A DNA stretch of 29,475 nucleotides from a virus. Each line of letters starts with the position of its first letter. Within the stretch, counting starts at the first letter, position 1. The notes under the pieces were generated by a model, which was not told the origin of the DNA, did no database searches, and was given only the letters and a program-made list of their open reading frames with translations. Positions 15,201 to 22,601 of the stretch are shown here, piece after piece. The stretch covers positions 1 through 29,475 of IMG/VR virus record IMGVR_UViG_3300042892_001290; one strand, written 5' to 3'. The translations under genes were made by a program, and so were the position numbers.

Positions 15201-17617
15201 TCGTCGCGCAGCTTGATGCGGGCGGCCAGCACGTCGTTGACGCCTTTTTCAAGAGCGGCCTCGGCCTCGGTACGCGGGCCCACGACGTTGGCGTACGCCT
15301 CGGCGCTTTTGGACAGTAGCTCGATAGCGTGGTCGTGCTCAAGCACGAACCCGGTCAAGCGTTCGGTTTCTGCGGCTGTGGCGGCGAGGTCGGCGCGGGC
15401 TTCGGGGGAGGCATAACGCATCGCGTCGTCCACACCGGTTTGCCGCGCAATGCGGGCCAGGTTCTCGGACTCTGAGCGCCAGAAGTCGTCGGACGCTTTT
15501 TGCGTCTTGGCGATTTCACCGCGCAGAGATACGAGCTGCAATTCGCGCAGCGTTTCAGCGCCATTCTTAACCTTGGTGGCGTTGTCGGCCAGCACCAGGC
15601 CGCGGGTGACTTCGGCTTGCGTGAGGTTGATAACCTCGGAGCGGTATTTGGCGAGCGCCTTGGTGTTGGCCTCAGTCTCACCCACTTTGCCCTTGTTAGA
15701 TGCGAGCGCGTCGTCGTAGGAGGATTTGAGGGCGGCCAGGCGTTTGTAGTAGGCGTCGCTCTCGGCGGTGCCAGCACTGGCCAACAGCGCGAGCTTTTCA
15801 CGCTCACCTTGCTCGATAGACGCCAGCTCGCGCTTTTGGAATTCGCCCTGCGTGATAAGCAAGCCCGAAGCGCGGGCCGCGGTCAGGCGCATTTCGTCGG
15901 CTTGCGACTGCGACAGCACGCTCAATCGGGAGGCCGCGCGCTGGCGCTCTTGCGCTATGAGGTTGTCGGACTCCACCTTGAACGAGCCAGCGCGGGGGCC
16001 CGCGGGCGGGTTGTACTTCTCGCGGATACCCGCGATGATTTCCGCGTGGCGCTTCTCGTTTTTGTTGGCGGGGCTTTCGCTGGCGTAGCGCAGGTTTTCT
16101 TTGTTGATTTCCCGCTGTAACAGCAACGCTTTGCCGAGGTACTTGTCGTGCTCTTTGTCCGCGTTTATCTCGGCTTCCACGTCTTTGGCTCTGCGCGCAG
16201 CGTAAGCCGCGGCCCGGCCTTTGGAGCTTTCGATATTCTGGTTGTACTCGACTTGCTTTTTCAGCGCGTTCACCACGCCTTGCTCGTAATCCACGTCGCG
16301 GTCACGGCCGCGGCGATCTGCACCGGTTGTGCCTTCGCGGTCTTTTATCACCTGGGCCAAACGAGCCTGCGCCACCTCCAGCGCGGATTTCACTTCGGCC
16401 ACGGGGTCGGCGGTGCGCCCTACCCCTTTGAATTGGTCCCAGGCTGCGGCGGCGGCGGCGCCCAGCGATTTCCAAGCCTTCTCTGCGTAGCCGAGGTTTT
16501 CCACCTCGGCGGGCATTCGCTGCTCGATGGCGCTGGCCCATGCGTTTTGCGCGAGGGCGCCCGCCTCCAGCAGCTTGCCTTGCTCGGTGAGCGCTTTGAT
16601 TTGCGCGTACACCGACTGCGTGAGGAAGTGGGTAGATTCGTTCAACCGCAGGCTCGCGGCGAGCGGGTCTTTGCCCAGCTCTGAGAACTGCTTGACGGTT
16701 TCGGCCACGGCGGTGCCGGTGGCCTTCTCGAAACGGATGGCTGCGGCGGATAGGCGCGTGAACTGGTCAGCGGCGACGTTGCCGGTGCTGGCGAATGCTG
16801 CGAGTGCTTGGGCGGCCGCGCCGATAGTGCTGCCCGACGCCTTGCTCACCTCGGCGGCCATGCCCTGCAAGCGGCCCACGGTGGTGCCAGCCATGTTGCC
16901 GGTGAGTATCAGCGACTTGTTGAATTCTTGCGCTTCCTGCGCGCCCTGGTAGTACGCAACCGCTAGGGTGCCGATGGCGGCGGCCGCTGCGGTGAATGGC
17001 GTAATGAGCCCCACCACGTAGGTGCCCATGGCCTTGGCGGCGTTGCCCACCCCACCGAACATATCTTTGAGCTGCCCGCCTTGTTGCAACAGCACGGTGA
17101 GCGGTTGCTGGCCCGATTGGAGCGATACGAAAATATCGGTGAACTGCGCCGGGACGTTGCGCAAGGCGTTAGATAACTGCCCCGCGGTGAGCCCCATTTC
17201 GTTGAGGCGCGGGGTGATCTTGCGCGCGGCGGCTTCGGTAGCGCCTGCGGCGGCTACGGCTGCGCTGGCTTGCCGCGCTTGTGCCACCTCGACAGCGCGG
17301 AGCTGGTCGAGGTATGGCTTGTATATGGACGGGTCGAGGCCCTTAGAGTTCGCTTTTAGCTCGAACTTTTCAGATAGCGCTTTGCCCGTCGCTTGGATGT
17401 CGATGGTGGCGTTTTTGAGCTGCGCCACCAGGGCTTTGGTCGCCCGGTCTGCGCCTTTCAACCCGGCTTCGGCGTTGGCGCCGATGCCGTTCATGGCCGC
17501 GCTCGCGCCGGACGCAGCTCCACCCAGGTCGTTGAGTGAGCGCTTTACCGCGTTGACACCAGTGGTGACCCCGCTTGCGTCTACGTCAACGACGATGGTG
17601 GATTTAATATCTGACAT
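12272..17617 (-). CDS. tail length tape measure protein
   Basis: A 1781-residue tape measure protein that sets tail length and is threaded through the tube. Residues about 140-330 match the lambda gpH-type domain (TMP_2: QFTDIFVSLQSGQQPLTVLLQQGG, then a hydrophobic segment 199-222). The centre is alanine-rich, long helical coiled coil with a glycine-rich hydrophobic block roughly half-way. The C-terminus carries the typical AAGGFHAGGMRLVGENGPE motif. The gene lies directly after the chaperone frameshift product, two bases from its stop. It is much longer than lambda gpH (853 residues), which predicts a long tail. Confidence 0.95.
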   Translation of the reverse strand: MSDIKSTIVVDVDASGVTTGVNAVKRSLNDLGGAASGASAAMNGIGANAEAGLKGADRATKALVAQLKNATIDIQATGKALSEKFELKANSKGLDPSIYKPYLDQLRAVEVAQARQASAAVAAAGATEAAARKITPRLNEMGLTAGQLSNALRNVPAQFTDIFVSLQSGQQPLTVLLQQGGQLKDMFGGVGNAAKAMGTYVVGLITPFTAAAAAIGTLAVAYYQGAQEAQEFNKSLILTGNMAGTTVGRLQGMAAEVSKASGSTIGAAAQALAAFASTGNVAADQFTRLSAAAIRFEKATGTAVAETVKQFSELGKDPLAASLRLNESTHFLTQSVYAQIKALTEQGKLLEAGALAQNAWASAIEQRMPAEVENLGYAEKAWKSLGAAAAAAWDQFKGVGRTADPVAEVKSALEVAQARLAQVIKDREGTTGADRRGRDRDVDYEQGVVNALKKQVEYNQNIESSKGRAAAYAARRAKDVEAEINADKEHDKYLGKALLLQREINKENLRYASESPANKNEKRHAEIIAGIREKYNPPAGPRAGSFKVESDNLIAQERQRAASRLSVLSQSQADEMRLTAARASGLLITQGEFQKRELASIEQGEREKLALLASAGTAESDAYYKRLAALKSSYDDALASNKGKVGETEANTKALAKYRSEVINLTQAEVTRGLVLADNATKVKNGAETLRELQLVSLRGEIAKTQKASDDFWRSESENLARIARQTGVDDAMRYASPEARADLAATAAETERLTGFVLEHDHAIELLSKSAEAYANVVGPRTEAEAALEKGVNDVLAARIKLRDDLASKVYDSAAAAGARAVDKLAKDNLATLNKSVADAITTGLVEGGEVGAKALREVIIAELKKPISIVVQALIRPVTEGVSGAIGSFGSFGSLGSKAVEGSGLLGKVGSYLGTVEIAGSSLSAIGGSFSTGISAGFAGIETSAAAAAYTAAGQTGVATGLSAGSAVGSALAAIPVWGWALLGAAALGDFGGGKEYTTGQGLTGKFNSDGFSGRNFQDWQNDGSKGLFGIGASGKSSGTNYSDLDSKQSNALGKTFNAIQKQTAQLAESLGASTDAITGYSQDVRLALGADAEANKKAIEAMFKSIADGAAATVVNLQYVREGEGAADTLLRLSGSIAVVNGMFDVMGKSLLGVSQAGGDVASQIVDALGGLEKYQTSMAAYYEAFYTEEERHANTLQSLQKQFGAMNIALPESIEGYRDLVNAQDVSTEAGRKTYATLINLSGAFATIAADVDTLQAVLTSTAGGIKKLVDSIAAARTDIIGDKANISPSGVMSAASIRAALDIINATAGAPSSAALDSANATATGNSAAAVAAAAVVAANSTQLGTAQTARESTVAFYQNKNAELRGLAGAYSPHGTSIRLNSSGEDNAAYNYNPATNRLNPFNSIGYTSYTNTLGWASTTYSPDVAGLKADPRYRALNTTLSGGDAALASAAQAVVTAQAALTAAQNAAAQATTTKIASDQAAARAALDYAGAVDRWAAQASKSVPALQKLREETVKYYESQKALAQQMSASANSLREAVRAARGGQLDAAQSTDLQQRDFAKNYALALATSGSDKANYADKLTAALPGLTSALQNTASSRADWAVATSTLFAQSGTIADQLESSAPANYQADSLALLDGIDASLVLLDDSTRAITRAIESSGGLTAAGLRAVVTALGGTPAFAAGGFHAGGMRLVGENGPELEVTGPSRIYNASQTRGMFSSDSSRLEALVERLTAEVSNLRIEARATASNTNKTAKILERVTPDGNSLQMVAA

Positions 17618-17619
17618 GC

Positions 17620-18248
17620 TCAGTCTTTTTTATTCAAAATGGCTAGGGCTTCGGACTCGATAACGCGAACGTCCTCGAACAGTTGCTCGTATTCGGCGTC
17701 AGTCAGATTTAGGCGGTCTAACCGGTGAAAAACTACGTTGTAGTCAATCCCGGTGGGACCACCCATTCCAATGCGCCATTGTGTGGAAACACTAGAAAAA
17801 AGAGCAATCGCTTTTTCGTTCTCGGGCCATATCTCTACGATTTCGTCGGCGTAGTCAGAAAGCGCGAAGCCGAAGGCGGATAGCTCTTTTTCGTCGTCGG
17901 GGGCCGCGTACAGAGCGCACGCAGCCTCTTTTAGTTTCCCAGGCGGGCGGCTGTCAGCTCGGACAGGTATTTCTCGATGATTGCGCGTGCGGCACCGAGG
18001 TAGTTTTCGGTCAGCTTTTCGACATTCGCTTTCTCGAATGCTTCCTCCAAATCCCAGCCCGAGGCGATGTCCATGAGCACATCGGTATCTTCGCGGCTGG
18101 TGAGCCCGTCCACGAACGCTTTGAACGCTTCGCGGGTGCGGCCTTTGAATGTGAACTCCACGTCAACGGCCTTGTCGCCGGGTACGGGAATCGCCACCTT
18201 GCACTTGAATGTGGGGTTTGCGGTGAGGGATAACTTTGGCTTTGCCAT
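17620..18248 (-). CDS. tail assembly chaperone frameshift product (gpG-GT-like, -1 PRF)
   Basis: A -1 ribosomal frameshift near the end of the chaperone gene fuses its 105 residues to a further 104-codon open frame (CTA at 17934 down to the stop at 17620-17622), giving about 209 residues. The extension has no start codon of its own and contains YADEIVEIWPEN and STQWRIGMGGPTG, the hallmark of DUF1799, the usual 'T' partner of such chaperones. It ends two bases before the tape measure ATG. In lambda-type phages the minor frameshifted form bridges the tape measure to the tail tube protein during assembly. Both the canonical slippery heptamer and the family match are visible. Confidence 0.88.
17931..18248 (-). 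CDS. tail assembly chaperone, unshifted form (gpG-like)
   Basis: A 105-residue acidic/helical protein of the phage tail assembly chaperone type (Phage_TAC). It has an N-terminal beta region (LSLTANPTFKCKVAIPVPG, then VEFTFKGRT) and C-terminal helices ending LTAARLGN. It is the major product of the frameshift gene and coats the tape measure before tube assembly. It sits between the major tail protein and the tape measure, the canonical position. The Shine-Dalgarno sequence is weak. Confidence 0.87.
   Translation of the reverse strand: MAKPKLSLTANPTFKCKVAIPVPGDKAVDVEFTFKGRTREAFKAFVDGLTSREDTDVLMDIASGWDLEEAFEKANVEKLTENYLGAARAIIEKYLSELTAARLGN
17934..17940 (-). promoter_or_regulatory. -1 programmed ribosomal frameshift site G GGA AAC
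   Basis: On the minus strand the last sense codons of the chaperone frame read CTG GGA AAC TAA. The heptamer G GGA AAC is an X XXY YYZ slippery sequence in the correct phase, and the zero-frame stop follows immediately. After slippage the ribosome reads GGG AAA CTA AAA GAG and stays open for 104 codons. The same kind of heptamer is used by tail chaperone genes in lambda and relatives. Confidence 0.9.
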
Positions 18249-18302: not shown

Positions 18303-18306
18303 CATG

Positions 18307-18329
18307 AAAAAGCCCACCGAAGTGGGCTT
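18307..18329 (-). terminator. terminator-like hairpin with UUCG loop after the major tail gene
   Basis: On the minus strand AGCCCAC-TTCG-GTGGGCT is followed by TTTTC. The UUCG tetraloop with a C-G closing pair is exceptionally stable. It begins 11 bp after the major tail protein stop. Confidence 0.8.
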
Positions 18330-20918: not shown

Positions 20919-22601
20919 CTAGGCCGTCCAGCCATTACCGACGAGGGTTGCCACAGAGCCGCCAGCAGCCGATGTGTTGAACGTGATAGCGGCCCAGAGG
21001 TCGCCTGTGTACGTCGCCGCAAAGGTATGAATTGTTGTGAACGTGGTTGGTGTTGCTGTCCTGGCTACTTGACACAACACAGTCCCCGACGAACGGATAA
21101 ACCGGATAACGTCGCCGTCTGCTGGTGCCAATGCCGTGTCTGGGTCTTGAGAACTACCGCCGCCCTCGTAGATCATTCGGTATGTGTCTGAGTTGTGGTT
21201 CAGAACTCCATACTTGTAGCCGCTTGCGCCGTCGTTGTATGCCGGGTTGGTCTGCGATGTGACAAGACCCACCATCCGAGTCGATGCTAGATCGTCCAGC
21301 GTGTAGATGCATCGCAGGCTACCGTCAACACCGCTTGGCATTTTGAGGTTAGACGTGCCGCAATGGTCCACGGTGTACGCCGCGCCCGTGTCGCATGTGT
21401 AGGTCCAGCCAACACCCGCGCTTCCTGATTCTGTAATCAAGCTGCCAGCAAACGCTGTCATTCTGACAAATGCGTCCGATAGCCCCGCGCTTGTAGACGC
21501 TGTTGCAGTTGAAGAATACGCGCCCGCTGTTGCGTTGTAGTTGGTGGCTCTAACCCGGAAATCGTAGCTGGTGCCTGCTGTCAACCCTGTCGCTGTGCCG
21601 CTTGCTGTTGTTGAAACCCCATCTGATACGGTGGTCCAGGTGCCAGCGCCCGCTGGTGAATACTGGATTTGATAATCCCGCACGGTGCCCGTTGCTGGTG
21701 CCGCCCAGGTTAGCGGCATGGATGTGTTGGTTGCCGTTCCAGTGGTTAGCCCTGTGACTTGCCCAGGTGCGGCCTCTCCCGCGTTGGCCTGCGCCGTGGC
21801 GATGCCGTTGGCCATGGTGGTACCCATTAGGCGCGCACCAGCGGCGTTGTAATGGAGCTGGTCCCCGCTGTCGTAGCCGGTGCCGATGGCCACTTTTGTG
21901 GCAAATGGGTAATTTGTGCCAATGGCGGTATGGGCTGCGTCGATGGCAGGATAACCACCCCGCGAAGATATGGCCTCTGGCATCATTTGACCCATAACGA
22001 ACCATGCGCTAGACGCGCCTGTAATGCCTGCTTTCATGCCAGCGATTAACGCCGCCAATGCTGTCTGATACGTGGCTTGTGGCACGGTGTTTTCTCCGTC
22101 GCCCTCACCCTGTAACCAGCAAATACCCTTGAATGTAGACCCCGGAAAAGCCGCCACCGCCGCCGATATGGCCCGGTTGGCTTGGTCTATCGCGCTTAGG
22201 TAGTCGGCATCGTTGGAGCCGTAGGGGCTCCATGTTGTAGAGCCCGTTACAAGCGATGTGCCACCCCTTGCGAATGGGACTAAAAGCACTTTTCGGTTGT
22301 ATAGGGCGTTATACCGTTTGGCGAAAAACATACCCGGTCCCACACCGTTGGGGGCCGCTACCGTATCCGGCATCGTCAACGGGTCGCTGCCTGCAAAGAT
22401 GGTGCGGTAGGTGCCTGCGCCGGAGTAGCACCCGAACTGGTACACGTCGGCGTCTGTGGTGTCTATTCCCGCGCTGTACGTGCCACGGCCGGACATGTTC
22501 GATTGACCGGCCAACAACACAATGTCGTAGTAGTCTGGCATGACTGTTGCGCCGCTACCCGCTATCAACATGCGCAGGTAGTCGTTAAAAGTAAGCGGCA
22601 T
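20919..22601 (-). CDS. SGNH/SASA-type carbohydrate esterase with Fn3 domain, in head module
   Basis: A 560-residue protein. Residues 25-265 form an SGNH hydrolase of the sialate O-acetylesterase type: nucleophile S34 in AGQSNM, WLQGEGD (162-168) and a D-x-x-H dyad (D247, H250) with HYNAAG. Residues about 278-370 are a fibronectin type III domain (VTGLT...YQIQYSPAGAGTW...GTSYDFRVRA). The C-terminal 190 residues are beta-rich, lectin-like. It would remove O-acetyl groups from surface sugars. The location is odd: inside the head region between the capsid and connector genes rather than among the tail fibre genes. It has a GGGAG Shine-Dalgarno sequence. Confidence 0.78.
   Translation of the reverse strand: MPLTFNDYLRMLIAGSGATVMPDYYDIVLLAGQSNMSGRGTYSAGIDTTDADVYQFGCYSGAGTYRTIFAGSDPLTMPDTVAAPNGVGPGMFFAKRYNALYNRKVLLVPFARGGTSLVTGSTTWSPYGSNDADYLSAIDQANRAISAAVAAFPGSTFKGICWLQGEGDGENTVPQATYQTALAALIAGMKAGITGASSAWFVMGQMMPEAISSRGGYPAIDAAHTAIGTNYPFATKVAIGTGYDSGDQLHYNAAGARLMGTTMANGIATAQANAGEAAPGQVTGLTTGTATNTSMPLTWAAPATGTVRDYQIQYSPAGAGTWTTVSDGVSTTASGTATGLTAGTSYDFRVRATNYNATAGAYSSTATASTSAGLSDAFVRMTAFAGSLITESGSAGVGWTYTCDTGAAYTVDHCGTSNLKMPSGVDGSLRCIYTLDDLASTRMVGLVTSQTNPAYNDGASGYKYGVLNHNSDTYRMIYEGGGSSQDPDTALAPADGDVIRFIRSSGTVLCQVARTATPTTFTTIHTFAATYTGDLWAAITFNTSAAGGSVATLVGNGWTA

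Follow-up and report, generated by a model that had tools for sequence, protein, structure and literature searches.

A very probable lambda G/GT-type programmed -1 frameshift cassette that pairs a Phage_TAC_4 tail chaperone with a DUF1799 extension and sets the stop codon beside the slippery heptamer

Our analysis of a 29,475-base IMG/VR virus record, the whole of which is called the window here, indicates that the locus between its tail tube and tape measure genes is, with little room for doubt, a lambda G/GT-type programmed -1 ribosomal frameshift cassette of the Phage_TAC_4 plus DUF1799 class. Most ribosomes would read G GGA AAC and terminate at the UAA that follows, yielding a 105-aa chaperone. 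A minority would slip back by one base, the tRNAs on GGA and AAC re-pairing with GGG and AAA, and go on through CUA AAA GAG... to give a 209-aa chaperone-DUF1799 fusion. A hairpin that starts 7 nt downstream would probably assist the slip, and slow reading of the stop next to the heptamer might do so as well. Cassettes of this kind are already known, and the window adds one more member; selection at the synonymous level for the adjacent stop is less documented than the cassette itself.

Table 1. Features of the frameshift cassette and its flanking genes, in positions of the window.
Feature	Position	Strand	Evidence or remark
Tail tube protein, 215 aa	18341..18988	-	Pfam PF08813, E=1.1e-56; phrog_584, E=4.9e-72; upstream of chaperone
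Tail assembly chaperone, zero-frame product, 105 aa, Phage_TAC_4, gpG equivalent	17931..18248	-	PF08748; phrog_569
-1 slippery heptamer G GGA AAC	17934..17940	-	phase read directly
Zero-frame stop TAA, directly 3′ of the heptamer	17931..17933	-	
Candidate stimulator hairpin GGCUGCGUGC-GCUCU-GUACGCGGCC, predicted 10 bp	17902..17926	-	RNA folding; starts 7 nt past the heptamer
-1 frame extension, 104 codons plus TGA, DUF1799, gpT equivalent	17620..17934	-	PF08809; phrog_680
Tape measure protein, 1781 aa	12272..17617	-	phrog_25966, E=6.7e-120; phrog_24, E=1.5e-107

The chaperone ORF opens with an ATG at 18248, and its 3′ end reads ...GCC CGC CTG GGA AAC TAA, which puts GGGAAAC (17940..17934) in the X XXY YYZ phase that tandem -1 slippage requires. 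Open from 18162 down to 17620, the -1 frame also extends upstream of the slip site, so that the heptamer lies in the overlap of the zero and -1 frames, as in cassettes of the lambda G/GT type; the placement after the tail tube gene and before the tape measure gene is likewise that of lambda G/GT. Past the slip, the extension begins with CTA (17934), encodes the 104 residues LKEAACALYAAPDDEKELSAFGFALSDYADEIVEIWPENEKAIALFSSVSTQWRIGMGGPTGIDYNVVFHRLDRLNLTDAEYEQLFEDVRVIESEALAILNKKD and ends with TGA at 17622..17620, two nucleotides before the tape measure ATG at 17617. A sequence-only reading of the window had described an in-phase heptamer directly before the stop, an open -1 frame of 104 codons ending two bases before the tape measure ATG, a gap devoid of start codons and a 209-residue product. 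The open frame was confirmed base for base, the heptamer and TAA are where they were said to be, no ATG, GTG or TTG precedes extension codon 57, and the sequence gives the same length for the fusion.

Both halves belong to recognized families. In a Pfam profile search the chaperone matched PF08748 (Phage_TAC_4) with E=4e-31 and 108.2 bits against a gathering cut-off of 21.1, its residues 1-105 aligning to positions 1-124 of the 124-position profile. The extension, which the earlier reading had called DUF1799-like, matched PF08809 (DUF1799) with E=6.9e-28 and 97.1 bits against a cut-off of 26, covering profile positions 2-78 of 80; the motifs that had been put forward as its hallmark, IWPEN and STQWRIGMGGPTG, are both in the extension. 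Since both halves score far above curated Pfam cut-offs, the cassette is not a chance arrangement. PHROGs assigns chaperone and extension to tail families (phrog_569, E=1.1e-28; phrog_680, E=6.5e-30), and a further family of 213 positions, phrog_17368, aligns to the chaperone over 1-105 and to the extension over 110-211 as a single chain, which means that relatives have been recorded as one chain. An AlphaFold model of the extension had middling confidence (pLDDT 78). Foldseek with this model retrieved viral tape measure chaperones in BFVD, including fusion-size entries of 210, 236 and 268 residues, and some BFVD entries carry both domains on one chain; against the PDB it retrieved no match, hence no fold class or partner is named. 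A sequence search for solved structures found none, a DNA-level search of phage records for near relatives gave no match, an Rfam search gave no family, and an NCBIfam search with both halves gave nothing except one sub-threshold, unrelated match.

The DNA between the chaperone stop and the tape measure gene behaves as coding sequence in the -1 frame. In all 42 relatives compared with the window, pN was lower than pS over extension codons 1-20. The same held in 42 of 42 over codons 1-56, versus 17 of 42 and 1 of 42 when this DNA was read in its two remaining frames; we give counts of direction rather than pN/pS ratios because synonymous sites are near saturation at such distances. By these sequence comparisons, purifying selection acts on the -1 frame starting at its first codon, and the leucine at that codon is invariant in an alignment of 15 sequences. 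What looks like a gap ahead of the tape measure gene is coding sequence. This selection, together with the recurrence of the same split in more than 80 distinct records, makes it highly improbable that the 105-aa chaperone is the only real product, with the extension a leftover that has lost its activity or an artefact of assembly.

Alternatively, termination-reinitiation or internal initiation close behind the chaperone stop might yield DUF1799 as a protein in its own right, as would suit the ATG found near extension codon 8 or 18-28 in many relatives and the several records that annotate a gene of its own beginning near those ATGs. The extension in the window, however, offers no ATG, GTG or TTG until codon 57, which already lies within the DUF1799 core, so an ordinary start cannot yield the whole domain; a variant of this explanation may have initiation at the CTG of extension codon 8. 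Seven of 82 junctions lack a start in the first 36 codons, and no Shine-Dalgarno-like column is conserved there. Separate synthesis also leaves unexplained the near-invariant XXXAAAC, the bias towards GGA at the slip site, the invariant leucine and the purifying selection on codons 1-20, and we consider it very unlikely.

The heptamer was examined in relatives gathered by means of the extension protein sequence, not the motif, from sets of 24 and 80 viral contigs, 1,090 phage records (19 of them opened for the junction test) and one genome contig. Among 82 junctions, each less than 90% identical to the others and each entered on the finding of a heptamer, GGGAAAC occurred 50 times, AAAAAAC 31 times and GGGAAAT once, that is, XXXAAAC in 81 of 82. 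The heptamer step failed for three of 113 loci entered (L112, L121 and L125). One of them, Klebsiella phage KLB26 (L125), has the usual A AAA AAC TAA junction, which the step missed through an offset. The other two keep the -1 frame next to the sites GCA AAA GTT TAA (L112, Klebsiella Webervirus Trimon) and T AAA AAC TAA (L121, Salmonella STSR3), possibly variant signals or sequencing differences. At about a dozen loci the automatic junction pick gave spurious longer ORFs; most have the heptamer, as read by eye. A second sample, drawn by Pfam-profile search of 398 genomes of one phylum, gave 30 DUF1799 loci, including one shared with the first set, with a phased XXXAAAC in 29 and AAAAAAG in one. 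Heptamer, phase and -1 relation persist in relatives down to about 30-40% identity and occur in Acidovorax and Variovorax phages, T1-like phages, phages of Vibrio and Stenotrophomonas, and cyanophage S-LBS1. As background, 2,223 ORFs of at least 100 codons from the window and the fetched loci included 113 that end in XXXAAAC-stop, by inference the chaperones, and eight that end in any other XXXYYYZ-stop. The sequence-only reading had proposed conservation of the heptamer in related phages as a check and relatives that keep the frame and lack the heptamer as the contrary case; conservation was found in both samples, in strong support of programmed frameshifting, and the contrary case is confined to the enterobacterial phages L112 and L121, where a changed A-rich site lies beside the stop.

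The same counts bear on whether the extension could arise from slippage of RNA polymerase on the A run rather than of the ribosome. The six consecutive A of AAAAAAC, present in about 40% of relatives, might permit this, but the window and 50 other distinct junctions have just three (GGGAAAC or GGGAAAT), and RNA polymerase slippage usually needs longer runs than that. The motif is, moreover, fixed in codon phase, and transcriptional slippage has in our estimate hardly any chance of being the explanation.

The stop follows directly in 78 of 82 junctions (TGA 38, TAA 31, TAG 9) and in 25 of the 30 Pfam-sampled loci; at the other four junctions it comes one to three codons later. Codon choice at the junction is strongly skewed, a mark of selection on the DNA sequence itself. 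All 51 glycines at the slip site are encoded by GGA, which accounts for 5% of glycine codons in these chaperones (p about 4e-67) and 4% in the large genes of the window, and extension codon 1 is CTA in 40 of 82 versus 5.7% among other leucine codons (p about 6e-28). Because of kinship among the rows, both p-values assume more independence than there is, but the effect sizes are large. When extension codon 2 encodes arginine, it is AGA or AGG in 12 of 14, against a background of 11%. Given that rare synonymous codons (CTA, AGA/AGG) keep the stop adjacent, selection places the stop, which is not a mere by-product of the protein sequence. Such selection could serve the frameshift or just the exact end of the short chaperone.

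We entertain, tentatively, a stronger reading in which, within the TAC_4-DUF1799 class, the stop itself contributes to the slip signal: the -1 shift would occur at least partly with the stop in the A site and tRNA-Asn on AAC in the P site, and the speed of the host release factors would set the ratio of chaperone to fusion. It is suggested by the near-universal adjacency, by the use of any of TAA, TGA and TAG, and by the rare synonymous codons that keep it. When the HIV-1 site was altered so that the next codon was a stop, release factor could act before slippage (PMC4373837). A selected stop adjacency makes this question about the mechanism of bacterial -1 frameshifting directly testable.

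Over the 82 junctions, the 40 nt of RNA 3′ of the heptamer fold better than synonymous-codon shuffles that leave codon usage and the -1 protein unchanged (mean z about -1.1, t about -6.8), and the excess of structure peaks just 3′ of the heptamer and fades by about 40 nt. For the window alone, z was about -2.6 against such shuffles in the 40-nt window at the heptamer, and an ordinary -0.5 against dinucleotide shuffles over 81 nt. A strong hairpin is missing in some relatives, including the close relative L029. On these predictions the hairpin in the window is likely, but not proven, to be a stimulator of the frameshift.

Two tail chaperone cassettes from an HK97-like phage cluster gave 6-7% frameshifting in E. 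coli (PMC3711429), where an AAC-ending heptamer is reported to be far less shift-prone than an AAG-ending one (A AAA AAC against A AAA AAG; PMC5009743). The rate at G GGA AAC is therefore uncertain; low shift-proneness would agree with a signal of low yield, or with one that depends on assistance from the hairpin or the stop. In lambda, the tape measure protein is bound by the short form and joined to the tail tube by the rare long form, at a ratio of about 30:1 (review PMC5009743). By analogy, the chaperone would coat the tape measure protein and the rare fusion would recruit the tail tube protein, so that the former is the expected client of the chaperone and the latter the expected partner of the extension. 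We infer that ribosomes slip here, how often they do so and what the fusion does when tails are assembled.

Comparison with known systems places the window among several relatives in arrangement. The lambda gpG/gpGT gene likewise lies between tail tube and tape measure genes and yields a short chaperone and a longer -1 form from a slippery G GGA AA(Z), but its site is GGGAAAG with five sense codons before the stop, and its families are Phage_TAC_2 and Phage_tail_T. The window proteins had no match to these two families, those of lambda gpG and gpT proper, in the Pfam search; they match TAC_4 and DUF1799, and the cassette is therefore lambda G/GT-like in working and outside those sequence families. 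For HK97 gp13/gp14, too, a -1 frameshift is annotated in a tail chaperone ahead of the tape measure gene, but the system belongs to Phage_TAC_1, has no in-phase XXXYYYZ beside the stop and has a moron gene before the tape measure gene. In Burkholderia phage KL1 (gp18/gp19; L159, 3450-3459), a GGGAAAC immediately upstream of TGA was predicted (PMC3483164). Its extension, however, is Phage_TAC_18 (PF23812), its chaperone has no Pfam match and another gene precedes the tape measure gene, which shows that the stop-adjacent arrangement is wider than DUF1799. Acinetobacter phage Loki gp12/gp13 has AAAAAAC touching the chaperone stop and a predicted fusion (PMC5313236), a likeness that concerns the site. 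AAAAAAC and GGGAAAC have also been given for phiCbK and Colossus. Relatives of the extension itself are the pre-tape measure frameshift protein of Serratia phage Smarc2, recorded as a two-piece joined CDS, and Hafnia phage Pocis76 ORF42, recorded in the same way, whose extension matches DUF1799 and whose site is AAAAAAC-TAA; their extensions are 43% and about 32% identical to that of the window, respectively.

The earlier reading had treated the heptamer directly before the stop as special and had supposed that standard gene callers would miss the extension. The site is present, but it is a rule for the family and was already published for single phages (KL1, Loki). The rule itself, XXXAAAC with an adjacent stop, was not found in the literature searched, which excluded the survey of Xu et al. 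(2004), where it may be described. As for gene calling, the extension is unannotated in the HK639 and ChibiTotoro records and is begun downstream at an internal codon in those of VarioGold, Aval, YMC11/02/R656 and ADB-2, whereas the Pocis76 and Smarc2 records join it. With XXXAAAC, a stop and a DUF1799 frame as the rule, annotation pipelines could recover a tail assembly protein that many of the examined records omit or cut short. In the KLB26 record, the flag 'unable to determine intron boundaries' is set on the region of the chaperone, where the sequence is instead the usual frameshift junction AAAAAAC-TAA.

Several other features of the window were recorded. A terminator-like hairpin, AAGCCCAC-TTCG-GTGGGCTT followed by T's, lies on the minus strand at 18305-18328, between the tail tube and chaperone genes; it was absent from the list of a pattern scanner, and annotated terminators flank the matching genes in HK639. 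At 20919-22601 on the minus strand, a 560-aa protein has fibronectin type III behind a SASA carbohydrate esterase domain (PF03629, E=2e-25); capsid and head-tail connector genes flank its gene, a location in which a sugar esterase is unusual. On the plus strand, a SNF2-type helicase (PF00176, E=1.3e-15) is encoded at 747-2123, adjoined at 1-750 by a putative C5 DNA methylase recognized by eye only.
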